DNA of 64,000 nucleotides from Lutibacter citreus (GTDB lineage Bacteria > Bacteroidota > Bacteroidia > Flavobacteriales > Flavobacteriaceae): positions 1 through 64,000 of the forward strand of contig NZ_QEIH01000003.1 of assembly GCF_003260195.1 (NCBI RefSeq), written 5' to 3'. A program made the position numbers and the translations under genes. Shown one piece after another: positions 12,320-57,349 of the stretch; the first letter of the stretch is position 1, and each line of letters opens with the position of its first letter. The notes beneath the pieces are model-generated. The model had not been told where the DNA came from and searched no databases. It worked only from the letters and a program-made list of their open reading frames with translations.

Positions 12320-12446
12320 AATTTCTAAATAATTGTTGGTTTATAGGATGAAATATTTACGAATTTTATATTCAGTTTTAATTTGTTAAATTGGAGCTTA
12401 AATACTTAACAATTTATATACAAGAGATTTAGAAAATAAAAGATCT

Positions 12447-40331: not shown

Positions 40332-40430
40332 TAATTAATAAAAGGGTTTATTTTCTTAATAAGTTTTTGCCTACCTTTTATTTACTTCAATTTTATGTTT
40401 AATTTATTTTCAAGATAGTTAAATGTAAAA

Positions 40431-40485
40431 TTACCATTCAACGACATTAAATTACCATTCAACGTTATTCAACTTTTAATTATCG
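40431..40485 (+). promoter_or_regulatory. LytTR-type direct repeats, array 1 (upstream of CheY-like gene)
   Basis: TTACCATTCAACG occurs twice, at 40431-40443 and 40452-40464, exactly 21 bp apart. A weaker third half-site in register (ATTATCG) ends at 40485. ACCATTCA(A/T) fits the known LytTR half-site consensus [TA][AC][CA]GTTN[AG][TG] in all but the fourth position and sometimes the last, and the 21-bp period is that of LytTR sites. I could not see a clear TAnnTTTG element before the gene. Confidence 0.6.
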
Positions 40486-40553
40486 AAATATTTATAAAAC
40501 ATTGATTTATATAATGACATTTACAATGTAAATAGTTTAAAATATTAAAATTA

Positions 40554-40967
40554 ATGAATAAAAATTTGAAAATTCTTCTTATAGAAGACGATATGATTGA
40601 GGTAATGAAGTTTAACAGAACAGTTACTAAACTTAATTTATCACATGAAATTATAGAAGCTAACAATGGAGAAGATGCCTTACAATTTTTATCAAAAAAA
40701 GTAGGACTACCTGATATTATTTTGTTGGATTTAAATATGCCAAAATTAAATGGTATTGAATTTTTAAATATTTTAAAAAATGATGAAACTTTAAAATATA
40801 TTCCTACAATTATTTTAACAACATCAAATAACAGAAGAGATATTTTAGAATGTTACAAAGCAGGAATAGCAGGATACATTATTAAACCCTTGAAATTTAA
40901 GGATTATGTTGATTTAATAGGGAGTTTACTAGATTACTGGAGTAAAAATGAACTAATAAAAGGGTAA
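40554..40967 (+). CDS. stand-alone CheY/Rcp1-like response regulator
   Basis: The 137-residue protein is a single receiver domain. Asp59 (LLDLNMPKLNG) is the phosphorylation site, with acidic residues EDD at 11-13, Thr in LTTSN and Lys in IIKPLKF completing the active site. It resembles the Rcp1 branch that pairs with PAS or phytochrome kinases. It has no output domain. It lies between the H-NOX kinase and the FIST operon, preceded by LytTR-type repeats, so it may be a phosphate sink or a shuttle in this relay. Confidence 0.92.
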   Translation: MNKNLKILLIEDDMIEVMKFNRTVTKLNLSHEIIEANNGEDALQFLSKKVGLPDIILLDLNMPKLNGIEFLNILKNDETLKYIPTIILTTSNNRRDILECYKAGIAGYIIKPLKFKDYVDLIGSLLDYWSKNELIKG

Positions 40968-41169
40968 ATAATATAAAGTTAAAGGAACTATTATATGTTC
41001 TTAAAAACTTCATGTTTATATTTAATATTTGAACTTATAAAAACTAAAAAAATAGCTTTCTGTTTAAAACTAATTTAAACTTTATTTAGCTTAACGAGCT
41101 TACATATTTAATAATTCTATTTTATTTATTGAGTAAAGTATTAATTTTAAATCACTAACAAAATATACT

Positions 41170-42300
41170 ATGAAAGTTGTACAAGCAAAAAAAGTAAATA
41201 ATAAAAAATGGGAATATGTATCTGAAAATATTCAGTTAAGTAACCCATTAGTATTAGTTTTTGGGAGTCGATTTTTACTTGAGAAATCAGAAGTTATAGA
41301 TGATTTAAGAGTTCAATTTCCATATGAACATATAGTTTTTGGATCAACTGCAGGAGAAATTCTAGGAGAGTCTGTTTATGAGGACTCTATTGTTGTTACT
41401 GCAATTGAATTTGAAAAAAGTAATTTTGAAGTTAGAACGGCTAGTGTTTTTGATTATGATAAAGACGCTAAATTGTTAGGAGAGAGTTTAATAAAACAAA
41501 TGCCTTCAAAAAACTTAAAACATTTATTTACGTTGTCAGAAGGTAGTTTTGTTAACGGAAGTGCTTTAATAGAAGGGATAGAATCTTCAATAAATAATAT
41601 ATCTTTAACTGGAGGTATGTGTGGAGATGGAATTTTATTTAATAAAACATTAGCTTCTTACAAAACAAATCCAAAAGAAGGAGAAGTTGTTTTAATTGGT
41701 TTTTATGGAGATACATTAGAATTTTCATTTGCAAGTATTGGTGGTTGGAATAACTTTGGGCCAGAAAGAATAATAACAAAATCAGAAGGTAATATTTTGT
41801 ATGAAATTGATAATTTACCCGCTCTAGATTTATATTCAAAATATTTAGGAGATAAAGCTTCTGAATTGCCACAAGCATCATTATTTTATCCTTTAAATGT
41901 TACTCACCCGGGGAAAAAAAAGCCTGTGGTTAGAACTATTTTATCTATAAATAAAGAAGATAATTCTATGGTTTTGGCAGGAGATGCACCTGAAAATTCT
42001 AAAGTACAATTAATGATGTCTTCGGTAGATGATATTGTAAGTGGTGCTTATGAAGCCGCTGAATTAGCAATGAAAAACAGAAAAAATAAACCGGAGTTAG
42101 CATTGTTAGTAAGTTGTGTTGGAAGAAAATTAGTAATGGATCAAAGGGTAGAAGAAGAAATTGAAGAGGTAATGAGTATTGTTGGCGACCAAACTAATAT
42201 TATAGGTTTTTATTCCTATGGGGAAATGGCTCCTTTTTATGGTCAAAAACAATGTGAATTGCATAACCAAACTATGACGTTAACTTTAATAAGTGAATAG
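41170..42300 (+). CDS. FIST-domain sensor (NosP-like)
   Basis: The 376-residue protein has FIST_N (about 25-225) and FIST_C (about 225-370) domains. Recognisable stretches are FGSTAGEILGE, LTGGMCGDG, PLNVTHPG and the end LLVSCVGRKLVMDQ then IGFYSYGEMAPF. Some FIST proteins (NosP) bind haem and sense nitric oxide, working with NahK-type kinases. The gene directly downstream encodes just such a kinase, overlapping by one base. Haem binding by this member is inference. A histidine ligand cannot be assigned from the sequence alone. Confidence 0.88.
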   Translation: MKVVQAKKVNNKKWEYVSENIQLSNPLVLVFGSRFLLEKSEVIDDLRVQFPYEHIVFGSTAGEILGESVYEDSIVVTAIEFEKSNFEVRTASVFDYDKDAKLLGESLIKQMPSKNLKHLFTLSEGSFVNGSALIEGIESSINNISLTGGMCGDGILFNKTLASYKTNPKEGEVVLIGFYGDTLEFSFASIGGWNNFGPERIITKSEGNILYEIDNLPALDLYSKYLGDKASELPQASLFYPLNVTHPGKKKPVVRTILSINKEDNSMVLAGDAPENSKVQLMMSSVDDIVSGAYEAAELAMKNRKNKPELALLVSCVGRKLVMDQRVEEEIEEVMSIVGDQTNIIGFYSYGEMAPFYGQKQCELHNQTMTLTLISE

Positions 42301-43340
42301 TGAAAAGATTATTAGAAAGACAAATTAAAAAATACCTTTCAGAAGACATTCTGAAATCTAAAGATGTGCAAAATTTTATCAATGCCATAGATATGTCTTA
42401 TAGTAATTTTGATGATAAATTAGAGATGTCTCAGCGTGCAATGAAAATTAGTTCAGATGAACTTTCACAAGCCAATGCAAAGTTAAGAGAAGACGCTGAT
42501 AGTCAAAAAATAATAATAAATAAGTTAAAGTATGTTGTAAAGGTACTTAAACTAGAATCTGTTGATAATAAAGATGATATTAAAGAATCTGTAGATCTTG
42601 TAAAATACATAGAAAAACAATCCAATGAAATTATAGCAGCAAATAAATTAAAGGAAGATTTACTTAAAAATTTAGAGCTTAAAAATGAAGACTTAAATAA
42701 TTATGCACATATTGTTTCACATGATTTAAAAACACCGCTTAGAAGTATTGATACATTGATTAATTGGATTTTAGAAGAAGAAAATCAATTAAGTAAAGAT
42801 AGTGCAAAGTATTTTGATCTTATTTTAAAAAATTTAGAGAAAATGGATGCGTTGATCAGTGGAATTCTAAATTATTCTGCCATTGATCAAATGGATTTGT
42901 TTGGAGATGAAGTTAAAATTTTAGATTTGGTAAAAGGAATTAAACAATCACTATTAATTCCAGACAATATAACTTTAAAAATTAATAATAATCTGCCTTC
43001 TTTAAAAGGAGATAAAATTAGATTAGAGCAAGTTTTTAGAAATTTAATTGAAAATGCAATTGATAGTTTTAATGGTGAAAAGGGTTTTATTGAAGTAGGA
43101 GTGAGTTGTAAAAGTAAAAACTGGGAATTTTATATTAAAGATACCGGTAAAGGAATTGAAAAAATTTATCATGATAGGATATTTAAAATTTTTGAAAGTT
43201 TAGAAAATAATATTAGCAACCCAGGAATAGGGCTTTCAATTGTAAAAAAAATAATAAATTTTTATGGAGGTGAAATTTGGGTAGAAAGTCAAGTTTCAAA
43301 AGGGAGTACATTTTATTTTACCATACCAAAAACACAGTAA
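42300..43340 (+). CDS. histidine kinase of the NahK/NosP-associated type
   Basis: The 346-residue kinase starts at a GTG that overlaps the FIST stop codon (TAGTG). Its N-terminus (MKRLLERQIKKYL, then a stretch ending with MSQRAMKISSDEL) matches the extension seen on FIST-associated kinases. A coiled coil leads to HisKA with IVSHDLKTPL (His141) and a HATPase with DTGKGIE and PGIGLSIVKK. No PAS or receiver is present, so its input is probably the FIST protein itself. The HPt gene overlaps its stop. Confidence 0.93.
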   Translation: MKRLLERQIKKYLSEDILKSKDVQNFINAIDMSYSNFDDKLEMSQRAMKISSDELSQANAKLREDADSQKIIINKLKYVVKVLKLESVDNKDDIKESVDLVKYIEKQSNEIIAANKLKEDLLKNLELKNEDLNNYAHIVSHDLKTPLRSIDTLINWILEEENQLSKDSAKYFDLILKNLEKMDALISGILNYSAIDQMDLFGDEVKILDLVKGIKQSLLIPDNITLKINNNLPSLKGDKIRLEQVFRNLIENAIDSFNGEKGFIEVGVSCKSKNWEFYIKDTGKGIEKIYHDRIFKIFESLENNISNPGIGLSIVKKIINFYGGEIWVESQVSKGSTFYFTIPKTQ

Positions 43341-43660
43341 TGACAGAAAAACCAAATTTAGAATATTTAAAAGAATTATCAGGAGGAGATATTGAATTTG
43401 AGCAAAAAATGCTTGAAGTAGTAAAAAAAGAATTACCTGTAGAAATAGAAAATTATAAAAAACATTTAGTTAATAAGCAATTTAATGAAGCCGCAGAATT
43501 AGTTCATAAAATTAAACATAAAATAAGTGTTTTAGGTTTAGAAGAAAGCTATCAAGTTGCAATTGATTATGAAGAGGAATTAAAAAAAGGACAAATAAAA
43601 CAACAAAAAAGTTTTGAAGATATTTTAGATTCAATGACTATATTTGTAGAAAATGTTTAA
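43340..43660 (+). CDS. HPt phosphotransfer protein
   Basis: Counting from the ATG that overlaps the kinase stop codon (TAATG), this is a 106-residue helical-bundle protein. AAELVHKIKHKIS places the phosphorylated histidine at His56, in the H-x-x-K setting of HPt domains. A longer frame starting at 43277 lies inside the kinase gene and is not needed. It should carry phosphate from one or both kinases to the LytTR regulator, whose gene overlaps its end by 8 bp. Confidence 0.88.
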   Translation: MTEKPNLEYLKELSGGDIEFEQKMLEVVKKELPVEIENYKKHLVNKQFNEAAELVHKIKHKISVLGLEESYQVAIDYEEELKKGQIKQQKSFEDILDSMTIFVENV

Positions 43661-44375
43661 TAAAAGAACTATGAATTGTATTATTATTGACGATGATGAG
43701 ATGGCTAGAGTCATTATCGAAAAATTAAGTAACAATAATGAAAAAATAAATATAATAGGAAATTTCGCAAATGCAATTGACGGGATTAAATACCTAAATC
43801 AAAATGAAGTAGATCTAATATTTTTAGACATTCATATGCCAGCTTTTACGGGGTTTGACCTTCTACAAACTATTGCAACTCCCCCAAAAGTAATACTTAT
43901 TACCTCTGATAATGGATTGGCTATTGAAGCTTTTGAATATGATTGTATTGTAGATTATTTGTTAAAACCAATAACTCAAGAACGGTTTGATAAGGCTGTT
44001 AATAAAGCACTAATGTTTTCAAAACCATTAGCTGCTAATGTTAAAACAGAAGAGGTTGATAATGTTAAAGACCTATATGTAAATATAGATAGACGTTTAG
44101 TGAAAATTAATTTTGAAACAATTAATTTTATTGAAGCTAGAGGCGATTATATTTTAATAAAAACCGAAAATAAAAATTATACAGTACATTCAACATTAAA
44201 AAAAATAGTTGAAAAATTACCTGATGATTTGTTTTTAAAAGTACACAGATCATTTGTAATTAACACTAAAAAAATTATTGATATAGAAGATAATAGTGTT
44301 CTAATTGGCAAAGACGTTATTCCGGTTAGTAGGTCTAATAAACCCGAATTAATAAAACGCCTTAATTTACTTTAA
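43653..44375 (+). CDS. LytTR-family response regulator
   Basis: The 240-residue protein has an N-terminal receiver (about 7-125; Asp59 in FLDIHMPAFTG, acidic DDD at 13-15, Lys in LLKPITQ) and a C-terminal LytTR DNA-binding domain (about 138-240) with FIEARGDYILIKT, LPDDLFLKVHRSFVIN and the final PVSRSNKPEL. It ends the FIST-kinase-HPt operon. Direct repeats fitting the LytTR consensus precede five genes in the window, so it is a natural candidate to bind them. Met7 is an alternative start. The 3' end overlaps the convergent gene by 14 bp. Confidence 0.94.
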   Translation: MFNKRTMNCIIIDDDEMARVIIEKLSNNNEKINIIGNFANAIDGIKYLNQNEVDLIFLDIHMPAFTGFDLLQTIATPPKVILITSDNGLAIEAFEYDCIVDYLLKPITQERFDKAVNKALMFSKPLAANVKTEEVDNVKDLYVNIDRRLVKINFETINFIEARGDYILIKTENKNYTVHSTLKKIVEKLPDDLFLKVHRSFVINTKKIIDIEDNSVLIGKDVIPVSRSNKPELIKRLNLL

Positions 44376-46413
44376 ACACAGGCTTTTTAGTTAAATACCA
44401 TTTTAAAACAAAACCAACTTCAGTAAAAGTAAACCCAGAGGCGGTTGCAGAAGCTATATTACTTCTGTTTCCATAAATATTAGCCAACAGTCTTTCAGAA
44501 ATATTATAACCTAATTTAGCTTGTATTCTATAAGTTGATTGTTTAGGTTGTTCTTCAATATATTGATATCCTGTGGCAGCATTTAATCCGTAAAATAATT
44601 TTTTATCATTTTTTGAAATATCAATAAATACTTCTACAGCATTAAATTTTTCGGGACTAAAATAAACAGTTGGAACTTGGTTTTTAAAAGTTATATGTTG
44701 AAAGTTTAAACCACCTTTAAAAGCTGGTTTTGATAAAAAATTATAATACAATGAAGTAAATAATAAATTTCTTTCATTTTTATCAGTTTGAGTTGTATAT
44801 AAATATTGAGTAAACCAACCAAGCTTAAAATTTGTACTTAAATTATAATTAAGAATATAATTATTTGAAGCAATTTCCTTATCAACTAAATCAGCGTTAA
44901 AATTTTGAACTTCTCTTTTATATCCAATTTCTAAATCTTGAAGTTTAATAGGTTTTGTTTTAAAAAATATTTCAGCTAATAGTTGAGAATAATCATTATT
45001 AAAAGAATTAGCTTTAGAAATTCCTGTTTTTGCATTTAAAGTTATTTTTGGATGTAGTTGATATTGTAAATCCAAACTAATATTATTAGATTTTGCTTTA
45101 TGTTTTGAAATTGTATTTTCAGTTTTTCTATATTCATAATTTGCAGAAAAACTTAAATTTGTACTAACAGGAAAAGTAATTTTTGTGTTACTTGAATAGG
45201 CTACGTTATCACCATTATCAAAAGTATAGCTAACTTTTTCTTCAATATAAGGAGTGTAATTTGTATTTAGTTTTTTTAAAAAACTTGTAGCATCTTTTTG
45301 ATTTTTGAATATTGATAGCGTTTTAAATACTCCTTTATAGGCTTTTTTAATTTCTCCATTTGCAAAATAAGCGTTGGTACTTCCTAAATTTCCATCAAAA
45401 GAAAGAGAATCTTTTTCTAAAATTTGTTTGTAATCTGCAATTGTTTTTTTAAAATCACTTCGGTATATTCCTAAAGTTGCACGTAAAGAAAGGATCCAGT
45501 TTTCTTCACCGTATTCAGTTATTAAGTTTTTTATTTTAAATTCAGCATCCTTAAATTTTCTATTCCAAATTAATGCTTGCGTATAACGTTCTAATGTTTT
45601 TTTTGTTAAAGTTGAATCTTTAACTATTTTCGATTTAGCTAATGCTGCTTTTGAAATTTCTAATGCTGTTTTATCTTTTTCTGAAATATGAGAAACTAAA
45701 GCTAAACCATTTAAAGCTAGTAAACTATCTTTAGGGTTAGTTGCTATTTGTTTATATAATTTAGTAGCGTTTTCGGTTTCTTTAGTCTGTAAATATATAT
45801 TTATCTTATTTAGTAAAGTCTCTTTATCATTAGGGAAATCAACTAAATTTTCATCTAATAAAGAAATAGCAACCTTATAATTTTGGTTTTGCACATATTC
45901 ATTGGCATATCCTAAACGAATGTATTTTTTTGAAATCATAGCGTTTGGGTTTTTTGGAGATACTTCTAGAGTTTTATTTACATAAGTAAGAGCATCTTTA
46001 TATTCTTTTAAATTTGAAAAAGTATTTGCAAAACCTAAAAGCGCTGCAAAATTAGTAGGATTTTTAGCTACTAAAGTTGTATAATATATTTTAGCTTTTT
46101 TAAATTGCTTTGCCCATAAAAGTGATTCCGAATAATTTAATTCAATTTCAAGATCATTAGGATATTCTTTTAATAATTTTGTAAAAATTACTATTGCTTT
46201 AGGAGCATTACCATTTAAACCTACCGCTCTTCCATAACATAAATTTGCAGTTTTATTGTTGGGGTAATCTTTTAAAGTATTTTTAAAAAAGATTTCAGCT
46301 TTATCAAACTTTCCAGTTTCAAGCAATTGAAATCCATCCTTCATATTTTGACTTATTATAAAATTACTATATATAAAAAGTATAAAAAAGGATGTGTTTT
46401 TAAGTAAATTCAT
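44362..46413 (-). CDS. TPR protein with C-terminal outer-membrane barrel (YaiO/PgaA-like)
   Basis: The 683-residue protein has a signal peptide ending IISQ, about nine TPR-like helical repeats (about 25-385) and a C-terminal beta-rich region (about 390-683) of alternating aromatic strands ending in LKWYLTKKPVFKVN. This layout, periplasmic TPRs plus an outer-membrane barrel, resembles YaiO-type proteins and exporters of exopolysaccharide such as PgaA or the AlgK/AlgE pair. Its place beside flippase and glycosyltransferase genes supports a role in polysaccharide export. Divergent from the STAS gene, it shares the intergenic region that holds LytTR-type repeats. Confidence 0.75.
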   Translation of the reverse strand: MNLLKNTSFFILFIYSNFIISQNMKDGFQLLETGKFDKAEIFFKNTLKDYPNNKTANLCYGRAVGLNGNAPKAIVIFTKLLKEYPNDLEIELNYSESLLWAKQFKKAKIYYTTLVAKNPTNFAALLGFANTFSNLKEYKDALTYVNKTLEVSPKNPNAMISKKYIRLGYANEYVQNQNYKVAISLLDENLVDFPNDKETLLNKINIYLQTKETENATKLYKQIATNPKDSLLALNGLALVSHISEKDKTALEISKAALAKSKIVKDSTLTKKTLERYTQALIWNRKFKDAEFKIKNLITEYGEENWILSLRATLGIYRSDFKKTIADYKQILEKDSLSFDGNLGSTNAYFANGEIKKAYKGVFKTLSIFKNQKDATSFLKKLNTNYTPYIEEKVSYTFDNGDNVAYSSNTKITFPVSTNLSFSANYEYRKTENTISKHKAKSNNISLDLQYQLHPKITLNAKTGISKANSFNNDYSQLLAEIFFKTKPIKLQDLEIGYKREVQNFNADLVDKEIASNNYILNYNLSTNFKLGWFTQYLYTTQTDKNERNLLFTSLYYNFLSKPAFKGGLNFQHITFKNQVPTVYFSPEKFNAVEVFIDISKNDKKLFYGLNAATGYQYIEEQPKQSTYRIQAKLGYNISERLLANIYGNRSNIASATASGFTFTEVGFVLKWYLTKKPVFKVN

Positions 46414-46460
46414 TTTATTTTTTTGTTGTTATTTACAATTGCAATTTAAGTATAAAGCAG

Positions 46461-46515
46461 CAATAATTCATCTACAGAAAGCTGCACTTTATCGAAAAAA
46501 CCTAACCTTTCAACT
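46461..46515 (+). promoter_or_regulatory. LytTR-type direct repeats, array 2 (between TPR-barrel and STAS genes)
   Basis: Three half-sites lie in strict 21-bp register: CAATAATTCATCT (46461), CTGCACTTTATCG (46482) and TAACCTTTCAACT (46503). A near -7 element TAATATTTG starts at 46525, 37 bp from the reference base of the middle site. The array could serve both divergent genes. Confidence 0.5.
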
Positions 46516-46562
46516 TGTTATTTATAATATTTGCATCACAATTAATGATTAAAAAAAATATT

Positions 46563-46847
46563 ATGGCTCTAAAAATAGTGAAGCAATTTGGTGTTTATGA
46601 ATTAGAAGGAGTTTTAAATACTCAAAATAAAGAAGCTTTTAAAAACTATTTTAGTTTAGTTTTAGAAAATTCAACATTTATTAAAATGTCTATTAATAAA
46701 ATTAAAGATATTGATGTTTCTGTAATTAAATTTATTTCATCATTTCATAAAGAAGTTAAAAATAAAAAGAAAGTATTATTTATTGTAGGTTTAAAAAACA
46801 AGCAATTAGTTCAACTTTTTAAAAAAGAAATGATAACAACATATTAA
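46563..46847 (+). CDS. STAS-domain (anti-anti-sigma-like) protein
   Basis: Started at the ATG at 46563, the protein has 94 residues with the STAS pattern: an initial beta strand (KIVKQFGVYELEG), a central helix, KMSINKIKDIDVSVIKFISS with an aspartate in place of the usual serine before the switch helix, and a KKVLFIVGL strand. A longer frame from 46515 would start upstream of the likely transcript start. STAS proteins act as switchable partners of kinases. In exopolysaccharide loci they sometimes gate synthesis. The flippase gene follows after 5 bp. Confidence 0.75.
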   Translation: MALKIVKQFGVYELEGVLNTQNKEAFKNYFSLVLENSTFIKMSINKIKDIDVSVIKFISSFHKEVKNKKKVLFIVGLKNKQLVQLFKKEMITTY

Positions 46848-46852
46848 TATTT

Positions 46853-48118
46853 ATGAATATAGGAGCGCTTAAAACATTAATTTTTTCAAGAAAATTAACT
46901 TCAGAACAATTTTTCATGTTATCCATATTGTTGGTTAATGGAGGTAATTACATCTATAATTTATTGTTGGGTAGAATATTAGGACCAGCAGAGTTTTCGG
47001 ATGCTGCAATTTTAATTACTTTTTTATTAGTATTATCATTTGTTGGGATGACATTTCAAATTGTAGCTGCAAAATATGCGGTTTTATATGAAAATGAAAA
47101 ACTACAGGCTTTTTTGAAATTTATTACAAAGTACGCAACGTATTTTGGAATTGGGTTTGCTGTTTTAATTGTAATTTTTAATAAACAATTACAAAATGTA
47201 TTTCATACTGAAACATCATCAATGTTTTGGATATTTGCAATAGGATTGCCATTATATTTTTTAATGAGTGTTAATAGAGGTCTATACCAAGGTAAAAACT
47301 CCTTAAAAATGCTTGCATATACATATAAGACCGAAATGGCAAGTAGGCTTATAATTACAGTTGCAGCTATTTTATTATTTCCTCTTTTTCCTTCATCAAT
47401 AATAATTGCTATAGGTATTGTTATTTCTTTTGTTTTTGGGTTGTTTCCTTTTCAAAAAACAATTGTTAAAGCGATAAAAACTACGCATGTAAAGTTACCA
47501 GAATCTAAAAGTATTATGATATTTTTTGGTTTAACGGCTTTTTATGAGCTAACTCAAATAATAATAAATAATAGCGATATTATTTTAGTAAAACATTATT
47601 TTGATAACGAACAAGCTGGTTTATATGCATCTTTAGCTTTAATAGGTAGAGTTGTATATTTTGTAGCCTGGATGTTTGTAATGTTGTTATTGCCTAAAGT
47701 AATTCAACTAAAAAAGGATGGTGAAAACACATTGCCAATACTAATGAAATATGTTGGTTATATATTTATTCTATCTACTGTAATTGTAATATTTACTTGG
47801 TTGTTTCCTGAGTTTGTAGTTAGGTTAATGTTCGGATCACAGTATTTGTCAATTTCATTTTTATTATGGAAATATGCTTTGGCAACATCTATATTTGCTA
47901 TAGCTAATATATTTTCATATTACTTTTTGTCTATAGATAGATATATACCAGTAATAGTATCTGCAATATTAGGCTCAACACAAATAGTGTTGATTGTATT
48001 TTTTCATGAAACATTAGAACAAGTTGTTTTAATGCAAATATGTGCAATGGTAGCATTGTTGTTTTTTCAATTATGTTATTTCTTTTATTACCATTTTCAA
48101 ACCACTCGTCGAAACTAA
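46853..48118 (+). CDS. polysaccharide flippase (Wzx/MATE-like oligosaccharide transporter)
   Basis: The 421-residue protein has about twelve membrane segments of the oligosaccharidyl-lipid flippase type, starting FMLSILLVNGGNYIYNLLLG and LGPAEFSDAAIL, with a central NNSDIILVKHYF motif common in Wzx proteins. It should move lipid-linked sugars across the inner membrane. It directly follows the STAS gene and precedes a glycosyltransferase. The end of this gene carries LytTR half-site 5. Confidence 0.86.
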   Translation: MNIGALKTLIFSRKLTSEQFFMLSILLVNGGNYIYNLLLGRILGPAEFSDAAILITFLLVLSFVGMTFQIVAAKYAVLYENEKLQAFLKFITKYATYFGIGFAVLIVIFNKQLQNVFHTETSSMFWIFAIGLPLYFLMSVNRGLYQGKNSLKMLAYTYKTEMASRLIITVAAILLFPLFPSSIIIAIGIVISFVFGLFPFQKTIVKAIKTTHVKLPESKSIMIFFGLTAFYELTQIIINNSDIILVKHYFDNEQAGLYASLALIGRVVYFVAWMFVMLLLPKVIQLKKDGENTLPILMKYVGYIFILSTVIVIFTWLFPEFVVRLMFGSQYLSISFLLWKYALATSIFAIANIFSYYFLSIDRYIPVIVSAILGSTQIVLIVFFHETLEQVVLMQICAMVALLFFQLCYFFYYHFQTTRRN

Positions 48119-48132
48119 ATTGTTTTTTATCG
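48099..48132 (+). promoter_or_regulatory. LytTR-type direct repeats, array 3 (upstream of glycosyltransferase)
   Basis: AAACCACTCGTCG (48099-48111) and TTGTTTTTTATCG (48120-48132) are spaced 21 bp. The reference base of the second (48126) lies exactly 37 bp before a good -7 element TAAATTTG (48163-48170), which would start transcription about 20 bases before the ATG at 48199. The first half-site overlaps the end of the flippase gene. Confidence 0.6.
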
Positions 48133-48162
48133 AAGATTATTTAAAACGTATTTATTCATTAT

Positions 48163-48170
48163 TAAATTTG
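48163..48170 (+). promoter_or_regulatory. putative -7 promoter element of the glycosyltransferase gene
   Basis: TAAATTTG fits TAnnTTTG. The position relative to the LytTR-type repeats (37 bp) is the same as for the genes at 55422 and 56855. Confidence 0.5.
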
Positions 48171-48198
48171 AAATATAAGTAATCAAAAAAAAATAAAA

Positions 48199-49407
48199 AT
48201 GAAAATAGCAATTGTAACAGCATTTCCACCTAGCAAAGTAACATTAACAGAATATGGTTACCATTTAGTAAAGCATTTTGCAATAAAAGAAGAAGTAACT
48301 GAAATTGTTTTAATTACGGACCATACTTTGGAAGAAAAGCAATTAGATTTCCCTACAAACAATTGTAAAATAACTGTAAAAGACTGCTGGGAATTTAATA
48401 GTTATAAAAATGTGTTTAGTATTTATAAAACCATTAATAAAGAAAAGCCTGATGCTGTTTTATTTAATCTTCAATTTATGAAATTTGGAGATAAAAAAAT
48501 ACCAGCTGCTTTAGGGTTATTGTTACCAATGTTATTAAAATTAAAAGGAATACCTAATATAGTTTTATTACATAATATACTAGAGCAGGTAGATTTGGAT
48601 AGTGCTGGATTTACTAGTAGTAAATTAATGCAAAAAATATATAATTTTATTGGTACTACACTAACAAAATTTGTTCTTCAGGCAGATTATGTTGCGGTAA
48701 CTATTAGTAAATATGTTGATATTTTAAAGAGTAAATATAATCATGATAATGTTGTGCTTATTCCTCACGGAGCTTTTGAAACTCCGCCAGAACCTAGTTA
48801 TGTTTTGCCTAAAGGACCAAAACAAATTATGACATTTGGGAAGTTTGGTACTTATAAAAAGGTTGAAATTATGATTGAAGCTGTTAAAGAAATTAGAAAA
48901 AGAACAAATGAAGATTTAGAAATTGTAATTGCAGGTACCGATAGTCCAAATACGCCAGGTTATTTAAATGCTGTTAAAGAAAAATATAAAGATGTTCCAA
49001 ATATTAGATTTACGGGTTATGTAGAAGAAGAAGATGTGCCAGTAATATTTAACGATAGTGCGGTTGTAGTATTTCCATACACATCAACAACGGGAAGTTC
49101 TGGAGTCTTACACCAAGCAGGTAGTTACGGTAAAGCTGTTGTTTTACCAAATTTAGGAGATTTAGCTATTCTAGTGAAAGAAGAAGGTTACAGAGGTGAA
49201 TTTTTTGAACCAACAGATCATATGTCATTAGCTAATGCAATAGAAAGTATTGTTGTAAATGAAGAGCATAGAATTAATTTAGGTAAACTAAATTATAAGG
49301 CAGCTTGTTCATTACCTATGGGGAAAATTGTAGATATGTATTTATCTCATTTTAATACAATTATTGATTGTAAAAAATCTAAAAAACAATTAATAGGTAA
49401 TATATGA
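48199..49407 (+). CDS. glycosyltransferase family 1/4 (GT-B)
   Basis: The 402-residue protein starts MKIAIVTAFPPSKVTLTEYGY and has a Rossmann-like GT-B layout. The C-terminal half carries the nucleotide-sugar site: IMTFGKFGTYKKVEIMIEA, RFTGYVEEEDVPVIFNDSAV and VFPYTSTTGSSGVLHQAGSY. Donor and acceptor sugars are unknown. It lies in the polysaccharide locus and has its own promoter with LytTR-type repeats. Its last 18 bp overlap the convergent hydrolase gene. Confidence 0.87.
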   Translation: MKIAIVTAFPPSKVTLTEYGYHLVKHFAIKEEVTEIVLITDHTLEEKQLDFPTNNCKITVKDCWEFNSYKNVFSIYKTINKEKPDAVLFNLQFMKFGDKKIPAALGLLLPMLLKLKGIPNIVLLHNILEQVDLDSAGFTSSKLMQKIYNFIGTTLTKFVLQADYVAVTISKYVDILKSKYNHDNVVLIPHGAFETPPEPSYVLPKGPKQIMTFGKFGTYKKVEIMIEAVKEIRKRTNEDLEIVIAGTDSPNTPGYLNAVKEKYKDVPNIRFTGYVEEEDVPVIFNDSAVVVFPYTSTTGSSGVLHQAGSYGKAVVLPNLGDLAILVKEEGYRGEFFEPTDHMSLANAIESIVVNEEHRINLGKLNYKAACSLPMGKIVDMYLSHFNTIIDCKKSKKQLIGNI

Positions 49408-50943: not shown

Positions 50944-52159
50944 AATTTATTTGATCAATATTTTTTGAAACACCTAAAGCTTTTATTTTAAAAGAATAAC
51001 TATCTTCTTTATAAAACTCTGATGAAATATAGAATTTTACAAAGCCTTTAAAAGATGTTGACGATTTTGTTTCTACGAGTTTATTTTTTGAATAAATATG
51101 CAGTTTTACCAAGGCGCCATCCGGTATTAGTTGATCCATAAAACTTAGTAATGGACCAACGGTGATTTTTCTGTTTTCTTCTGAAAACGTGACATCAAAA
51201 TCATCAATAATTGCTTTAAATGCTAATTGTATGGTATTACTTTCTGCCAAACCATTAACATATCCTTTTATTCTCCATAAATCTTTATGATCTGGGTGTA
51301 GAATTTTTGCTTTTGCGATACCATTTAAAGTGCTAGATCTAGTTTTTAAAACTATATTTTTGCTGTTTCTTATATTGAATTCAACCAAAGTACCATCACT
51401 TATAATATTGCCAAATTCATCTTTTATTTCAGAAGTAATTAATTCGGTTAATTCATTTCCATCAGCAAAGTTATGGCTGCTATTTGCATGAATTAAAAAA
51501 TTGATAGGGTTAGAAGGGAAAATAACGGTTGTTAATTCGTTAGTTGTTGTGTTGTTTGAAGAGGAGGAAATATGTAAAGCTCCCGATTTTTCTCGACTCG
51601 TAATATTTTGCCAAGCAATTAAATTATTAGTTTTAAGTTCTGTGTATTCAATATTATCTAAAAATTGGACATGACTTTTAACTGCTGAATTTTGTGGTAA
51701 AGGATTGTCAAATTTATCAGTAGGTATAATTACAAGCATTGTATAATCTCTATTTCCTGCCTGAATACTTCTTGGACCTAAATAAGTTTCAACTAAGTTT
51801 TTTGTTGGTACATTTGGAATAATTTCAATATAGTTTTTTGCAATTATTTCTCCATTCAATATTAAACTCCAATTAATTATTCCTGCTTTCTTTGAAAATA
51901 CGTCAGGAATGTTAAAAGTTATATTGTTTTTAATAATAGGGGATAAAAGAGTTCTGCTATAAGCACTTTTAATATATAATGAAGGGCTATTTAAAGTATT
52001 GTTACTTGTAAATGAAATTGAAACATTAGTGCCAGCAATAAAATTTTTAGTGGTTGTAATTAACTTATAATTGTTTTCAGCCTGCGCAATTTGAGCGTAG
52101 CTAGAGGTAAGCACTAAAAAAAGTACTACAATAAATAATATGTTTTTAGTTTTTTTCAT
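50924..52159 (-). CDS. periplasmic protein with Ig-like/invasin-type domains
   Basis: The 411-residue protein has a signal peptide (to about residue 22, SSYA) and is beta-rich throughout. The central part (about 120-320) reads like bacterial Ig-like repeats (DKFDNPLPQNSAV and DEFGNIISDGTLVEF, each followed by a TRS/SG alternating pattern). It probably scaffolds or guides the polymer or an enzyme. It lies between the membrane GT-C-like protein (1-bp overlap) and the GH5-like hydrolase (20-bp overlap), which ties the three products into one job. Confidence 0.72.
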   Translation of the reverse strand: MKKTKNILFIVVLFLVLTSSYAQIAQAENNYKLITTTKNFIAGTNVSISFTSNNTLNSPSLYIKSAYSRTLLSPIIKNNITFNIPDVFSKKAGIINWSLILNGEIIAKNYIEIIPNVPTKNLVETYLGPRSIQAGNRDYTMLVIIPTDKFDNPLPQNSAVKSHVQFLDNIEYTELKTNNLIAWQNITSREKSGALHISSSSNNTTTNELTTVIFPSNPINFLIHANSSHNFADGNELTELITSEIKDEFGNIISDGTLVEFNIRNSKNIVLKTRSSTLNGIAKAKILHPDHKDLWRIKGYVNGLAESNTIQLAFKAIIDDFDVTFSEENRKITVGPLLSFMDQLIPDGALVKLHIYSKNKLVETKSSTSFKGFVKFYISSEFYKEDSYSFKIKALGVSKNIDQINYAKLNK

Positions 52160-55100
52160 TAATTAGGATTACCAACATAACTATTAAGTTCAATTTTAAT
52201 AAATTGAAATTCATTTGAACTTTTAAGCTCCTGTAATTGTTCTTTTAAATGATTTAGATTTCTATTTGGTACAACTTTTTCTGAAATAGATTTATTAGGT
52301 AAGCCATTTACAAAACAATTTTTTAGACTACTATTTATAACCTCAATACTATCATTTTTTTGCAACGGATAATCAAAATATTGTTTACGTTGCACTCTAA
52401 CACCTTCTCGTAAAAATTGATGTTCTACCCAAATAATTTCTTTATCTTTATTGTAATATGAAACTATTAATTGCGGAATTGTAACTTCTTGTATTCCATA
52501 ATTAAACAAAGTTCCTTCAATATGTTCATCATCAATCTCTAAATTGGTAATGGCTATTTTTTTGTATAAATCTGTGATGGCTACATTACCTGCGCATTGC
52601 AAGTTGAATTTTGTTGGTTGATGCTCTAAAGTAATTGGGGAAAACTCGTGAGGGTTAAAAGTTTCGGGAACTTTCTCATTAGGATTCAACCAGGCAATAC
52701 CTTCAAAATCTAATCTAAAACTAGTTACTTCCTTAGGTAAAAGCTTATGTTTTATAACGTATTTGGCATTAAAAGTTGAAACTTCAATATTTTCATCGGT
52801 ATATAATGTTCCTTTTAAAACAACATCAGCAGGAACATTATCAATATTTTGTATTTCACCAACTATTGAGTATTGATCTTTGTATTTTATTAAAGAAGCA
52901 TTCAATATTTCTAAAACAGGTTGTTTTAAAATATCTTCGTGATGAGTTTGTTGCGTTGTAATTCGCCTTCTACCATGATTATAATATTCAGGTATATTGT
53001 CTGAAAATAATTGATCAGGTGGTATATCTAAATCATACGAACTAGGTTTTACATACCATTTGTTTTTTACTTTTATAAGTTCATGTTTATAGGTTTTATC
53101 TATAACCTCTAATGGAGTAACCCATTGAGTATTCGCAATAATTTTAGCAGTGTTTTCTGTTTGTTCAACAATATTTACATTTATAGAATCTAGTTTTGCA
53201 TATGAGCTTAAAATTCCATCGGTTACTGAAACTTCCAGCATATACTGTGAAATAGTAATATCACTATCAGGATCTAAATAAGAATGTGCTCTTTCAAATT
53301 CTTTAAAATCTAATGCATCATAATACGCATTAACAACATTTTCGGGACTTAATTGAGTTGTATTTTTAACATAGAATAAATACATTCCAAAAAAGAAAAT
53401 AGCTATTAAAAATAAGGCCCAAACATGTAATATGATAATTAGGTATTTAGAAAAATTACTATAATCGGTTTTAAATCTTAAAAAAGGAGGTGATTCTTTA
53501 ATTTTTATTTTTAAAGTTTGATACCAAACCATTTGAATATTTAAAATAAACGCAATTACAACAGTAAGCAGAGGTATTATTCCCCACATTAATTTTAAAA
53601 ATTTAGGTACATCATCTTTCGGTAAAATTTTGGAGAGTGGCGGTACATTTAATTTTTCCCATACCATAATTCCATTTTCAAGTTGCCGCAATCTTTGCCA
53701 ACCACAGAAGTAGAGTATGGGGTCGTAAAATTTATCGTTTGAAAAGACATACTTTAAATTGTATTTTTCTGGAACAGTTAAAAATTGTTGTAAACTTCCA
53801 ATTCCTTCAATTCCTCTAAACTTAGAATTTTCTAGTCTTTCAACAGCTCTAGTTGTTAATTCAGGAAGTCTTCTTGCCGAGTGGTAATTTCCATCTACGG
53901 TCATAGCATTTGTTTGTGCAGATAGCCAAGCAATTTGATCTCCAAACCCCAAAGGTAAAAAACGCCAATGGTCATGTTGATCTTGACTTAGGAAATTTAA
54001 AATGGGTAGCATTTTAATTTCTTGCGGTTGAGAAGGTCTAAAATATCCTAAAGTAATTGTAAATGCAGTAATAATTATAAATAAACCGGCAAGTGAAGCT
54101 CCTAATATACGATGATATACAGCGCCAAATTTTGATTGAAGTTTATCTTTTAAATCACCTTCAATAAATCTATAGGTAAACTCACCAAACATTGGTATTG
54201 CCATTATTGAGGCCCACAATGTAAACCTATCTAATGTTAAAATATTAAAAGCGGTTTCACCTAACATTTTTAAAGGAATAGGAGTTGTACCTCCAGTACC
54301 TAAAACAGAAAGTAATGTAAATGATAAACCAAAAAACAAGTATCTTTTTGAATAATATCTATAGTAAATATAAGGAAGTATAAAAAGTAAAATTCCCCAA
54401 GGAATTATAAAAAATACTAACCCTGATGAGGTTACTTCTAAAAAATTATCTCTACTTCCGTGCGGAATAGGAACTTGTGTAATTGGGTTTGCTTTGGAAT
54501 TTACCCAGTAGGGTAGAATACAAAAAATTATAACTAATAATGAAAGTCCTCCAAAACCAATAATTCGTTTAAATAGTTGAAAAAAGGACCTTAAAAATAT
54601 TTTAAAGGTAACTTCTTTCATTGAGTTTACTTGATCTCTTGAATGGTCCATAATTACCATACCAATTAATGGGAAAATAAAAAAGATCATTCCAAAAATA
54701 GGAGTAACATGATGAGATGTAACGGTTACCGCTAATAATGAAATAGAAGTAAACAGGTATTTGTATTTACCTGTTTTTATCCATAAATAAATTTCGGGTA
54801 AACAGTGCATTAGTATTGAAACTCCAATAATACTGGGAAGTTGACCAAAAATATGTAAGGTTTCAACAAAGGAAGAGGATAATGTAGCTAATATGGCAGC
54901 ATAACCAGCTGCTTTTCTATTTGCAGTAATAAGTAATGAAAATCTATAGGAGCCAGTTATAAACAGTATAATAGCTATTAAGGCAACCGTAAACATTCCA
55001 AATTTTAATCCTCCAATGTATGACAGAATTGCAATTGATTGGTGTACCAAAGGTGGGTATCCCATAACAGTAAAACCGGTATACCATTTATAACTCCAAG

Positions 55101-55251
55101 GTTCAAACCAACTATTTGAGTAATGTTCAGCAAAAAATAAATGTATTAGCGCATCATAAGTACCTTCTAACGTAAAAAAAATTGTTGTACCATGAAAAAT
55201 AACACCAATAAGAAGCGCTACTATTAAGTATTTATTTGTTTTTTCCTGCAT
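52159..55251 (-). CDS. large membrane protein, GT-C-like, with C-terminal NTF2-like region
   Basis: The 1030-residue protein has about twelve N-terminal membrane segments with EGTYDALIHLFFAEHY in the first long loop (an Asp and His in the position of GT-C catalytic residues), a WYTGFTVMGYPPLVHQ stretch and a periplasmic region (about 430-550). A second membrane pair follows at about 560-640. The C-terminus (about 650-760) looks NTF2-like (NAYYDALDFKEFERAHSYLD), then a beta-rich region. I infer a polyprenyl-linked glycosyltransferase or polymerase, but the family assignment is tentative. It heads the three-gene operon, and the start lies 170 bp from the REC-GT2 gene, divergent. Confidence 0.65.
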   Translation of the reverse strand: MQEKTNKYLIVALLIGVIFHGTTIFFTLEGTYDALIHLFFAEHYSNSWFEPWSYKWYTGFTVMGYPPLVHQSIAILSYIGGLKFGMFTVALIAIILFITGSYRFSLLITANRKAAGYAAILATLSSSFVETLHIFGQLPSIIGVSILMHCLPEIYLWIKTGKYKYLFTSISLLAVTVTSHHVTPIFGMIFFIFPLIGMVIMDHSRDQVNSMKEVTFKIFLRSFFQLFKRIIGFGGLSLLVIIFCILPYWVNSKANPITQVPIPHGSRDNFLEVTSSGLVFFIIPWGILLFILPYIYYRYYSKRYLFFGLSFTLLSVLGTGGTTPIPLKMLGETAFNILTLDRFTLWASIMAIPMFGEFTYRFIEGDLKDKLQSKFGAVYHRILGASLAGLFIIITAFTITLGYFRPSQPQEIKMLPILNFLSQDQHDHWRFLPLGFGDQIAWLSAQTNAMTVDGNYHSARRLPELTTRAVERLENSKFRGIEGIGSLQQFLTVPEKYNLKYVFSNDKFYDPILYFCGWQRLRQLENGIMVWEKLNVPPLSKILPKDDVPKFLKLMWGIIPLLTVVIAFILNIQMVWYQTLKIKIKESPPFLRFKTDYSNFSKYLIIILHVWALFLIAIFFFGMYLFYVKNTTQLSPENVVNAYYDALDFKEFERAHSYLDPDSDITISQYMLEVSVTDGILSSYAKLDSINVNIVEQTENTAKIIANTQWVTPLEVIDKTYKHELIKVKNKWYVKPSSYDLDIPPDQLFSDNIPEYYNHGRRRITTQQTHHEDILKQPVLEILNASLIKYKDQYSIVGEIQNIDNVPADVVLKGTLYTDENIEVSTFNAKYVIKHKLLPKEVTSFRLDFEGIAWLNPNEKVPETFNPHEFSPITLEHQPTKFNLQCAGNVAITDLYKKIAITNLEIDDEHIEGTLFNYGIQEVTIPQLIVSYYNKDKEIIWVEHQFLREGVRVQRKQYFDYPLQKNDSIEVINSSLKNCFVNGLPNKSISEKVVPNRNLNHLKEQLQELKSSNEFQFIKIELNSYVGNPN

Positions 55252-55305
55252 TTAAAAAGTAAATATTTTTTAATTGTAAATATAAATAAATTGTATAGTT
55301 GTTCA

Positions 55306-55360
55306 ATTTTATTTATCGTTATAAAACAACCATTCATCTGAATAAAAGCTTTTTTCAACT
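55306..55360 (+). promoter_or_regulatory. LytTR-type direct repeats, array 4 (upstream of REC-GT2)
   Basis: Three half-sites lie in 21-bp register: ATTTTATTTATCG (55306), CAACCATTCATCT (55327) and GCTTTTTTCAACT (55348). The -7-like element TACTTTTA begins at 55391, 37 bp after the reference base of the third site. This places the transcript start after 55400 and supports the ATG at 55422. Confidence 0.6.
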
Positions 55361-55421
55361 AAAAAATAATTTAATTAAAGCTTTAGTGAATACTTTTATA
55401 ACAGAAATTAAAATAATAATT

Positions 55422-56558
55422 ATGAAGATATTAGCTATTGATGACCAGCAATTAATTTTATTACCACTTCAAAAGAGATTAGAAGAACTAGGATATGAAG
55501 TTAAGACAGAAATAAATGTAAAAGATGGTATTGCAACATTTAATTCATTTAAACCTGATTTGGTAATAGTTGATATGAATATGCCTGATGAATCTGGATT
55601 GGAAGTTGTTAAATTTATTAGAATTGAAAAAGAATTAACAACTCCTATTATGGTACTTTCAGGAAATACCAATGATGACTTAATTACTGAAAATTATGAG
55701 CTTGGTATAGATGATTATATGAAAAAGCCACTAAGCTTAAATGAAATTTGTGCTCGTATTAAGCGAATGATAGGTGTTCCTAAAAATAGTAATAAAATTA
55801 ATAAACCCGATAATGTAATTATACAACAAAGATGTGTTGGTGTTGTTATTCCTTGTTATAATGAAGAAGAAAGATTATTAAGTGATGATTTTTTAAGTTT
55901 TGTAGATAAACATTCTGGATATCACTTATGTTTTGTAAATGATGGAAGTAAAGATAAAACATTAGATGTTTTAAATAAATTGAAAAAAGGACGTGAAAGT
56001 TATATTACTGTTTATGATTGTGAACAGAATGGAGGTAAAGCTGAGGCGGTAAGACTTGGGATGTTGCATATGGCAGAAAAAGAAGATTTAGATTATATTG
56101 GCTTTTTAGATGCTGATTTATCAACTGATTTGTCTGATTTTGATGATTTAGTTTCAACTATTGAAAAATCTAAATTTAAAATAGTAAGTGGATCTAGAAT
56201 GAGTAGGATGGGGGCAAACATTACTAAAGAGTCTGCTAGAAAAATAATTAGTTTAACTATAAACTTTATAATCAGAAAAATTTTAAAAATGGATTTTAAC
56301 GATACGCAATGTGGCGCTAAAATATTCCATAAAGATGTTATTAAAATAGCTTTCGATAAAAAATTTTTAACGAAATGGTTATTTGATGTTGAAATTTTTA
56401 TAAGAATTAGAAAACATTTTGGATTGGATAAAGCAAAAGAAATATTATGTGAACAACCTCTTAAAAGATGGATTCACGCAGATGGATCTAAACTATCTAT
56501 GAAAGATTCTATTAAAATTATTGGGCAATTGGGGCAAATAGCTTGGGTGCTTAGATAG
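55422..56558 (+). CDS. response-regulator receiver fused to GT2 glycosyltransferase
   Basis: Started at 55422, the protein has 378 residues. Residues 1-120 form a receiver domain with Asp51 (VIVDMNMPDES) as phosphate acceptor and Lys in MKKPLSL. From about 138 comes a family 2 glycosyltransferase like dolichyl-phosphate mannosyltransferase: VVIPCYNEEERL, CFVNDGSKDKTLD, FLDADLSTD (DxD motif), GSRMSR and NDTQCGAKIFHKDV. No membrane segment is present. The fusion suggests that phosphorylation switches sugar transfer on or off directly. The upstream in-frame ATG at 55299 lies inside the regulatory repeats and is rejected. Confidence 0.9.
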   Translation: MKILAIDDQQLILLPLQKRLEELGYEVKTEINVKDGIATFNSFKPDLVIVDMNMPDESGLEVVKFIRIEKELTTPIMVLSGNTNDDLITENYELGIDDYMKKPLSLNEICARIKRMIGVPKNSNKINKPDNVIIQQRCVGVVIPCYNEEERLLSDDFLSFVDKHSGYHLCFVNDGSKDKTLDVLNKLKKGRESYITVYDCEQNGGKAEAVRLGMLHMAEKEDLDYIGFLDADLSTDLSDFDDLVSTIEKSKFKIVSGSRMSRMGANITKESARKIISLTINFIIRKILKMDFNDTQCGAKIFHKDVIKIAFDKKFLTKWLFDVEIFIRIRKHFGLDKAKEILCEQPLKRWIHADGSKLSMKDSIKIIGQLGQIAWVLR

Positions 56559-56585
56559 TGATTTTATAATTTACATTTATGATAT

Positions 56586-56615
56586 AAAAAAACAGCTATT
56601 TAGCTGTTTTTTTTT
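56586..56615 (+). terminator. terminator after REC-GT2
   Basis: AAAACAGCTA and TAGCTGTTTT form a perfect stem with a tiny TT loop, followed by a long T run. Confidence 0.85.
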
Positions 56616-56741
56616 GTTTTAACTGAATAACTAAGCTCATTCTAATTAAATAATTTTGAAGAAAAGTATAATCTTTTTTGTTGTTTAATTACTTTATATA
56701 CATTAATTAAGTCGTGTTTTTAGAGTTATAAAATTTATCAT

Positions 56742-56796
56742 TTTTTATTTATCTAAACAAATTTACCATTCATCGACATAGAAGATCTTACCAACT
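56742..56796 (+). promoter_or_regulatory. LytTR-type direct repeats, array 5 (upstream of CAP lipoprotein)
   Basis: Three half-sites lie in 21-bp register: TTTTTATTTATCT (56742), TTACCATTCATCG (56763) and GATCTTACCAACT (56784). The middle one is the clearest in the window. The -7 element TATTTTTG (56827-56834) lies 37 bp from the reference base of the last site, followed by the ATG at 56855. Confidence 0.65.
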
Positions 56797-56826
56797 AAAA
56801 TAATATAATTGAGTCATTTGTAATCA

Positions 56827-56834
56827 TATTTTTG
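56827..56834 (+). promoter_or_regulatory. putative -7 promoter element of the CAP gene
   Basis: TATTTTTG fits TAnnTTTG, with a TTG at 56809-56811 upstream. Transcription would begin about 14 bases before the start codon. Confidence 0.5.
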
Positions 56835-56854: not shown

Positions 56855-57349
56855 ATGAAAAAAATGAATTTTTATAAACAATTATTAATTGTAGGTTTTT
56901 TAGCTTTAATGTTGTCATGTTCTCAAGAGGGTGAAGAGATATTTAAACCTATATTAGAATCAAAAGTATCTTATACTAAACTTGAGAATGAAATTCTTAA
57001 ACGAGTAAATATTCATAGAGATAGTATTGGTTTAAACAAATTGGAAAAATTAGATTTAGTATCAGCGATAGCTTTATCTCATTCAAAATATATGGTTGAA
57101 AAAGGAAAAGTAAGTCACGATAATTTTTCAAATCGATATGAGAATTTAATTGTTAATGCAGATGCTAAATTTGTAGGTGAGAATGTTGCTTTTGGTTTTG
57201 ATTCTGCTAAAGGTGTTGTTTATTCTTGGTTGAAAAGTAATGTTCACAGAGCCGTAATTGAAAATCCTAATTTTACGCATTTTGGGATATCCACAGAAAA
57301 AAATATTAAAGAGAGAAATTATTTTACTCAAATTTTCATTGAAAAATAA
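56855..57349 (+). CDS. CAP (SCP/PR1-like) domain lipoprotein
   Basis: The 164-residue protein has a lipoprotein signal (ALMLSC) and a CAP domain. SAIALSHSKYMVEKGKVSHD, GENVAFG and WLKSNVHRAVIENPNFTHFG are the diagnostic stretches, with the two cavity histidines and glutamate in place. Bacterial CAP proteins of the YkwD type are found in envelopes, and their activity is unknown. It has a promoter with LytTR-type repeats and lies within the polysaccharide locus, so a role at the cell surface under the same control is likely. Confidence 0.88.
   Translation: MKKMNFYKQLLIVGFLALMLSCSQEGEEIFKPILESKVSYTKLENEILKRVNIHRDSIGLNKLEKLDLVSAIALSHSKYMVEKGKVSHDNFSNRYENLIVNADAKFVGENVAFGFDSAKGVVYSWLKSNVHRAVIENPNFTHFGISTEKNIKERNYFTQIFIEK

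Follow-up and report, generated by a model that had tools for sequence, protein, structure and literature searches.

Introduction

AgrA, VirR and AlgR are LytTR response regulators with direct repeats, and the LytTR consensus is a 9-bp element that we take to be ACCGTTNAT-like. AlgR of Pseudomonas is reportedly a receiver (REC)-LytTR regulator of alginate, and so likewise concerned with exopolysaccharide control, its sensors being different from those described below; we know of no 21-bp multi-box promoter grammar for the AlgR-alginate system. In the syp system, SypG is sigma-54 dependent and the syp locus starts with the STAS gene sypA. Here, we examine a stretch of 64,000 nucleotides from the flavobacterium Lutibacter citreus (assembly GCF_003260195.1, contig NZ_QEIH01000003.1, positions 1 to 64,000 of the forward strand; hereafter the window), in which five arrays of direct repeats with a 21-bp period precede genes of a predicted nitric oxide (NO)-type phosphorelay and of an adjoining polysaccharide locus. 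As judged from sequence comparison, these arrays are very probably operators of the REC-LytTR response regulator encoded at 43653, which would belong to an autoregulated, probably NO-responsive phosphorelay governing exchangeable polysaccharide loci.

LytTR proteins, RcoM/CoxC among them, are described as binding triple direct repeats 18–21 bp apart, mostly activating from upstream of the -35 element (PMC11347149), and LytTR regulatory systems as autoregulating via such repeats (PMC6193735). The system discussed here resembles these in having direct repeats that precede a promoter and are spaced by some two helical turns, a LytTR protein and predicted autoregulation (PMC11347149, PMC6193735). 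It differs from known LytTR systems in its Bacteroidetes-type TAnnTTTG promoter and in its predicted input from H-NOX/FIST kinases and an Hpt protein. The repeats reported for Bacteroides differ in sequence, and their 11-bp units are separated by 11 bp, giving a period of 22 bp as opposed to the 21 bp seen here (PMC6193735).

In Vibrio fischeri, HnoX acts negatively on a kinase that governs a polysaccharide locus (PMC12369376, PMC8738867). The HnoX-HahK-SypF/SypG-syp pathway and the L. citreus system thus share the order of an H-NOX-controlled kinase, a response regulator and a polysaccharide locus; however, the V. fischeri kinase acts via SypF with SypG as the output, whereas the output proposed here is a REC-LytTR protein encoded in the sensor block itself (PMC12369376, PMC8738867). 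As in NosP/H-NOX NO signaling, H-NOX and FIST/NosP proteins are paired with histidine kinases, but the pathways described there end in cyclic di-GMP enzymes, quorum-sensing relays or syp rather than in a LytTR operator regulon (PMC8738867). Among the literature matches listed (titles and starts of abstracts, most subscription literature being outside the scope), none described a LytTR circuit leading from NO sensing to surface polysaccharide in Flavobacteria or Bacteroidetes. Both LytTR operators and circuits leading from NO to polysaccharide have precedents; what those listings did not contain is the two combined, with the operator grammar described here, in Flavobacteriaceae.

Results

Five repeat arrays in the window

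The window sequence contains five gene-forward arrays on the + strand, each of two or three boxes with a 21-bp period:

40428..40490, + strand: array 1, 21-mer units at 40428, 40449 and 40470, upstream of CheY, the first gene of the CheY-FIST-histidine kinase-Hpt-LytTR stretch; proposed autoregulatory operator
46458..46520, + strand: array 2, units at 46458, 46479 and 46500, upstream of STAS-flippase and divergent from the TPR gene
48096..48137, + strand: array 3, two units at 48096 and 48117, upstream of glycosyltransferase GT1 and overlapping the 3' end of the flippase gene
55303..55365, + strand: array 4, units at 55303, 55324 and 55345, upstream of the receiver-glycosyltransferase fusion REC-GT2 and divergent from the gene for a 1030-amino-acid (aa) membrane protein
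56739..56801, + strand: array 5, units at 56739, 56760 and 56781, upstream of a CAP-domain lipoprotein gene

Four of the arrays (GT1, REC-GT2, CAP and, counted from its middle box, STAS) lie exactly 37 bp from a TAnnTTTG-like element:

46525..46533, + strand: TAATATTTG in the STAS promoter, degenerate and TAnnTTTG-like; distance counted from the middle box
48163..48170, + strand: TAAATTTG in the GT1 promoter; distance counted from box 2
55391..55398, + strand: TACTTTTA in the REC-GT2 promoter, a degenerate TAnnTTTG; distance counted from box 3
56827..56834, + strand: TATTTTTG in the CAP promoter; distance counted from box 3

Re-reading the window sequence bore out the original prediction, which had been made from the letters of the window alone, both as to the positions of the five arrays before these genes and as to the exact 37-bp spacing in the four promoters named. 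Box strength is uneven, mostly with one strong box and weaker neighbors (the GT1 array has two), and the third STAS box (46500) extends near the core promoter. The CAP array holds the top-scoring single site of the window (23.2, using a matrix derived from intergenic gaps of relatives, see below). When TTYAWCK triplets were counted (at most one mismatch per box and two in total, periods 12 to 33), three were found at period 21, namely CheY, STAS and REC-GT2, versus a combined four at the 21 other periods; neither the GT1 nor the CAP array satisfies this triplet definition. ACCATTCAT fits the LytTR consensus given above at eight of nine positions and the site on contig C35 of the same genome, ACCGTTTAT, at all nine, while weak boxes fit poorly. 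The box ACCATTC(A/G)TC(T/G)A is longer at its 3' side than that 9-bp consensus. The window by itself is insufficient to settle what these arrays are; the comparison with relatives decides.

Conservation of the motif in relatives

We collected 80 named flavobacterial loci through the 1030-aa protein, which served as a marker. The order REC-GT2, 1030-aa protein, BIG, glycoside hydrolase (GH), GT1, flippase, STAS, TPR is largely kept, although the small STAS gene often went undetected and the Zobellia loci are rearranged. A first matrix, trained on the gaps of these same 80 relatives, yielded the site consensus ACCATTC(A/G)TC(T/G)A(C/A)A; the counts of pair spacings, promoter offsets and REC-GT2 sites depend on it. 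Without any spacing being imposed, 96 same-strand site pairs lie 21 bp apart, the runner-up being 19 bp with four pairs; such direct repeats, about two helical turns apart, fall within the 10–13 bp between 9-bp repeats that characterize LytTR operators (PMC11347149). At a low threshold of 8.5, this matrix placed sites between REC-GT2 and the 1030-aa gene in 71 loci (76 gaps of this kind), between GT1 and flippase in 51 (69 gaps) and between TPR and STAS or flippase in 55 (31 + 24; 59 gaps).

Since the first matrix had been trained on the gaps in which it was tested, we retrained on 77 REC-GT2 promoters only and applied the result, at a threshold of 12, to other promoters of the same genomes. 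This held-out matrix matched the GT1 gap in 45 of 69 cases and the STAS/flippase gap in 38 of 59, all gene-forward, as well as 19 of 20 CheY promoters, which lie outside both training sets. Not one of 85 control gaps was matched (0/39, 0/21, 0/25), and 914 kb of genes contained 27 matches. A matrix learned from relatives passes, within the relatives' loci, the comparison of promoters with coding sequence that had been suggested along with the original prediction.

The geometry of the promoter recurs as well. A TAnnTTTG element lies 67–69 bp from the site start at 69 of 239 strong extragenic sites; within 140 bp downstream of strong sites there are 80 such elements, 69 of them in this cluster, and 18 are scattered upstream. 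For the most part, TAnnTTTG follows the strong box at a fixed 68 bp and the partner of that box at 47 bp.

Two arrangements in these gaps stand apart. Opposite-strand site pairs occur at 27 bp (11 pairs) and 48 bp (6 pairs); in Aquimarina-like loci, such pairs may be an operator of the divergent gene for the 1030-aa protein. The arrays that Zobellia (and stretch L100) has between TPR and LytTR were considered as the lytTR promoter and rejected: the two genes are convergent, so that the arrays face away from lytTR, and these arrays probably drive an intervening gene.

The regulator and its operon

The regulator gene claimed at 43653 is confirmed by Pfam, with LytTR at 1.5e-19 and Response_reg at 3.3e-17. 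Orthologues with 55–75% identity were present in all 50 of the 80 relatives covered by the search. In 49 of these, the orthologue (the nearer copy where there were two) is encoded within 24 kb of the marker gene and on the same side of it. Four of the 50 genomes carry a second orthologue copy (61–65% identity), and other LytTR proteins reach at most 42% among the matches listed.

Operon stretches were retrieved for 20 of the 50. They contain CheY, H-NOX, kinase, FIST, kinase, Hpt and LytTR, with CheY leading; H-NOX was matched in 18 of 20 (three at only 24–25% identity) and FIST in 16 of 20. A site lies about 100–150 bp upstream of CheY in 19 of the 20, accompanied in 18 by a partner box at a distance of 21 or 42 bp.

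Doublets and regulator across 296 genomes

The association was examined in 296 genomes of the order, using a doublet pattern with at most three mismatches and cut-offs of E ≤1e-60 for the orthologue and E ≤1e-100 for the marker gene. Doublets were found in 33 of the 296, while a control pattern gave five matches, all in one genome. The orthologue is present in 24 genomes, that of L. citreus included, and doublets occur in 22 of these 24 versus 11 of the 272 others (Fisher 5e-23). The same holds within the family of L. citreus (20/22 with the regulator versus 2/28 without) and within one genus (8/9 versus 1/16). Because the genomes are related, the Fisher values overstate independence; moreover, some of the 296 may also be training relatives, as LytTR coordinates in genome G183 equal those in G031 (Zobellia uliginosa).

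All 14 genomes with the marker gene have the regulator. The remaining ten regulator genomes, which lack a close marker gene, cannot be training loci, since those were fetched by that gene. Eight of the ten nevertheless carry doublets (Fisher 3.5e-9), in six cases within 30 kb of the regulator. The arrays thus follow the regulator rather than this particular locus. A strong site with TAnnTTTG at the exact distance, allowing one mismatch, gave 37 matches versus 8 with the control; by hand count, 29 of the 37 come from regulator genomes (16 of the 24) and the remaining 8 from genomes without the regulator (8 of the 272).

In other families, 21-bp doublets adjoin diverged LytTR genes (L263:8680-9424, L265:9345-10080 and L269:534-1069), and the operator grammar may therefore predate the system described here.

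The view that the NO-type relay and the polysaccharide locus are one regulated system, which had been advanced from the window alone, is supported by the relatives: the same promoters are marked, the CheY operon and the linkage of the orthologue are conserved as given above, and doublets track the regulator.

Further sites and a LytTR paralogue in L. citreus

The regulon had been called local. It is not purely local, as further sites lie in the same genome at C33 (189.4 kb), C3 (0.1 kb), C12 (720 and 730 kb) and C35 (138.5 kb). The prediction is correct in substance, and the regulon is broader than it claimed.

The genome encodes 13 LytTR genes. One of them, for a REC-LytTR paralogue on C12 (L224:10014-10742), is flanked by two strong sites, both at the exact promoter distance, and is the only one of the 13 loci with a strong site within 1.5 kb. 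Its LytTR domain is 48% identical to that of the window protein over 101 residues. This arrangement supports a link between LytTR proteins and the motif.

The C12 and C35 sites precede secreted proteins of one type, about 190–200 aa long. Genes for such proteins of about 190 aa, which we term IPEVALLDIE-type, lie around the paralogue (L224:8574-9239, 9417-9992, 11918-12457 and 18105-18674) and at L156:4391-4963; three of these genes are preceded by an operator with TAnnTTTG at the exact distance. No Pfam family was matched in the four proteins scanned (all but L224:9417-9992). On C33, a two-box operator (L154:4920-4961) lies upstream of genes for secreted or surface-like proteins, the first of which matched no Pfam family. 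The C3 site extends off the contig end, and near-identical operator-promoter sequence is found at two contig ends of this genome (C3:1-172 and C12:729.7-730.0 kb), perhaps one repeat that broke the assembly.

A one-box scan of the genome with two mismatches (1209 matches versus 1017 with the control) was too noisy, and part of its best matches were followed. Among eleven stretches examined in all, L157, L160 and L161 were dropped as intragenic, L162 as probably intragenic though intergenic by the open reading frame calls, and L158, L159, L163 and L164 for having no site.

Genes of the locus

The genes of the window that concern the proposed system, with domains assigned by Pfam where indicated, are:

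38192..38734, + strand: H-NOX (heme NO-binding) protein, HNOB 6.1e-37
38736..40331, + strand: PAS-histidine kinase (Pfam)
40554..40967, + strand: CheY-like single receiver (Pfam)
41170..42300, + strand: FIST protein, NosP-like, FIST 3.2e-44
42300..43340, + strand: second histidine kinase (Pfam)
43337..43660, + strand: Hpt phosphotransfer protein (Pfam, scanned from the upstream start 43277)
43653..44375, + strand: REC-LytTR response regulator, proposed binder; PF04397 (LytTR) and PF00072 (Response_reg), both above cut-off
44362..46413, - strand: TPR protein with a weak BCSC_C-like C-terminus, below cut-off; possible outer-membrane export component
46563..46847, + strand: STAS-domain protein (Pfam, scanned from the upstream start 46515)
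46853..48118, + strand: polysaccharide flippase (Pfam)
48199..49407, + strand: glycosyltransferase GT1 (Pfam)
52159..55251, - strand: 1030-aa membrane protein, the marker shared with the 80 relatives
55422..56558, + strand: receiver-glycosyltransferase fusion REC-GT2 (Pfam, scanned from the upstream start 55299)
56855..57349, + strand: CAP-domain lipoprotein (Pfam)

Between GT1 and the 1030-aa gene, Pfam places a glycoside hydrolase and an Ig-like protein (Ig-like below cut-off). Among 20 proteins scanned between 38 and 62 kb, a Pfam DNA-binding domain was found in the LytTR protein alone and in none of the other 19. The operator of its operon lies 3.2 kb upstream of the LytTR gene, and since the H-NOX and PAS-kinase genes of the window precede CheY, array 1 is inside the gene block.

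The H-NOX protein aligns with solved heme-NO-binding chains, and in the best alignment the candidate ligand-histidine region is identical; the histidine conserved there is presumably the heme ligand. Its gene adjoins that for the PAS-histidine kinase, the arrangement characteristic of H-NOX signaling, the heme pocket being a prediction from sequence. The FIST protein stays below the cut-off of the curated NosP model (NF041558, 73.4 bits versus 450) and is NosP-like at most. The 1030-aa protein, which has a mean column identity of 77% over 23 flavobacterial sequences, matched no family in either Pfam or NCBIfam.

The proposed operators at a different polysaccharide locus

One genome of the same family (G114) has no close marker gene, yet it carries the same operon and array, plus two STAS-like genes. 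Its arrays precede a different, Wzx/Wzy-type locus that encodes an AAA-domain protein, which we infer to be of the chain-length type, a flippase, a Wzy_C protein, a UDP-sugar dehydrogenase and a fusion of a receiver with a sugar transferase. In three of its five doublets, the distance of TAnnTTTG from the first site is 68 bp; in the other two, the CheY array and an array after lytTR, TAnnTTTG lies 67 bp from the second site. Receiver-glycosyltransferase fusions are thereby seen in two unrelated operator-marked loci, REC-GT2 in the window and a REC-bacterial sugar transferase in G114 (L271:7571-8758).

Discussion

We propose that dimers of the window's LytTR protein, once phosphorylated, would probably occupy a pair and in some cases a triplet of direct-repeat boxes directly ahead of the promoter, most likely the strong box together with the one 21 bp closer to the promoter, and that transcription would be activated from TAnnTTTG promoters. 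The REC-LytTR protein would be fed by the H-NOX/NosP-like two-kinase Hpt relay encoded in its own gene block, and as this block carries the same operator, the system would regulate itself. Its main output would be the cell-surface polysaccharide locus, with an exopolysaccharide as the likely product; the CAP lipoprotein and some secreted proteins encoded at other places in the genome would be further outputs. On the V. fischeri model, NO would act as an inhibitor of the kinases and thereby reduce expression.

Several results weigh against this proposal. The loose two-box pattern gave 51 matches in the 5.1-Mb genome versus 49 with the reversed control, and six of the 51 lie within the arrays; the pattern as first written thus fails in the very genome scan on which the original prediction was to be judged, and the half-site is not diagnostic and was not used as evidence here. 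A scan for site plus promoter with three mismatches was likewise near chance (35 versus 31 with the control); three perfect matches and one with two mismatches were kept and the rest treated as chance. By inspection of the window sequence, no TAnnTTTG was found at 37 bp in the CheY array, and among relatives TAnnTT[TG]G lies 67–68 bp from the highest-scoring site in no more than 2 of 20 CheY promoters. No TAnnTTTG stands at the usual distance from 170 of the 239 strong sites, and no site was found in the REC-GT2 promoter of five Flavobacterium loci among the 77. Two regulator genomes (G169 and G251) have no doublet at up to three mismatches, and doublets occur in 11 genomes without the orthologue. 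Of the 45 doublets in regulator genomes, 14 lie either farther than 30 kb from the regulator or on a different contig, among them the entire eight in G122 and G256, the two in G053 and the single one in G075. Finally, the C12 paralogue shares the motif, and some sites may therefore be its own.

This last point leads to the alternative that we take most seriously, though we think it unlikely, that the arrays are LytTR operators whose chief binder in L. citreus is the C12 paralogue, or that the regulon is common to both proteins. The two strong sites flanking the paralogue, each before a secreted protein of about 190–200 aa, and the similarity of the two LytTR domains would fit this; however, it is the window-type orthologue that lies near the locus in 49 of 50 relatives (the search was for the orthologue) and whose own operon is preceded by a site in 19 of 20. 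That the LytTR protein acts as a repressor, blocking promoters until the relay relieves the block, seems rather improbable to us. CoxC, a LytTR repressor, uses three direct repeats that overlap the -35 box (PMC11347149), and the third STAS box does come near the core promoter, but the fixed position of most strong boxes and their partners upstream of TAnnTTTG is the one usual for activators (PMC11347149).

More improbable still is that an unrelated regulator from outside the locus binds the arrays, with LytTR as a syntenic bystander. The whole block is strongly syntenic, LytTR binding is predicted from sequence alone, and the doublets in 11 of 272 orthologue-free genomes would be in keeping with such a regulator. 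Nevertheless, doublets follow the LytTR gene even where a close copy of the marker gene is absent (8/10 versus 11/272), and box length and period match LytTR precedents. In addition, three of eight orthologue-free doublet stretches (G161, G092 and G073) lie about 150 bp or less from a diverged LytTR gene; in the other five, the search found none. Chance repeats in AT-rich promoters, which the background frequency of the loose pattern might suggest, can practically be dismissed, as relatives keep motif, strand, period and promoter distance and the held-out matrix tests tell against chance. We retain the REC-LytTR protein at 43653 as the probable binder of the arrays.

A further possibility, which we put forward tentatively and hold to be somewhat doubtful, is a portable, autoregulated, gas-responsive module with two outputs, transcription through REC-LytTR and phosphorylation of the receiver-glycosyltransferase fusions. 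NO would then gate both the making and the running of the machinery, and through its operator grammar the module could be attached to unrelated polysaccharide loci.

The analysis provides a concrete operator, a promoter geometry and a likely cognate regulator for a regulon common to many Flavobacteriaceae. A connection from NO-type sensors to the surface sugar coat thereby becomes testable in this family, and the operator pattern can be used for reading regulons in more genomes.

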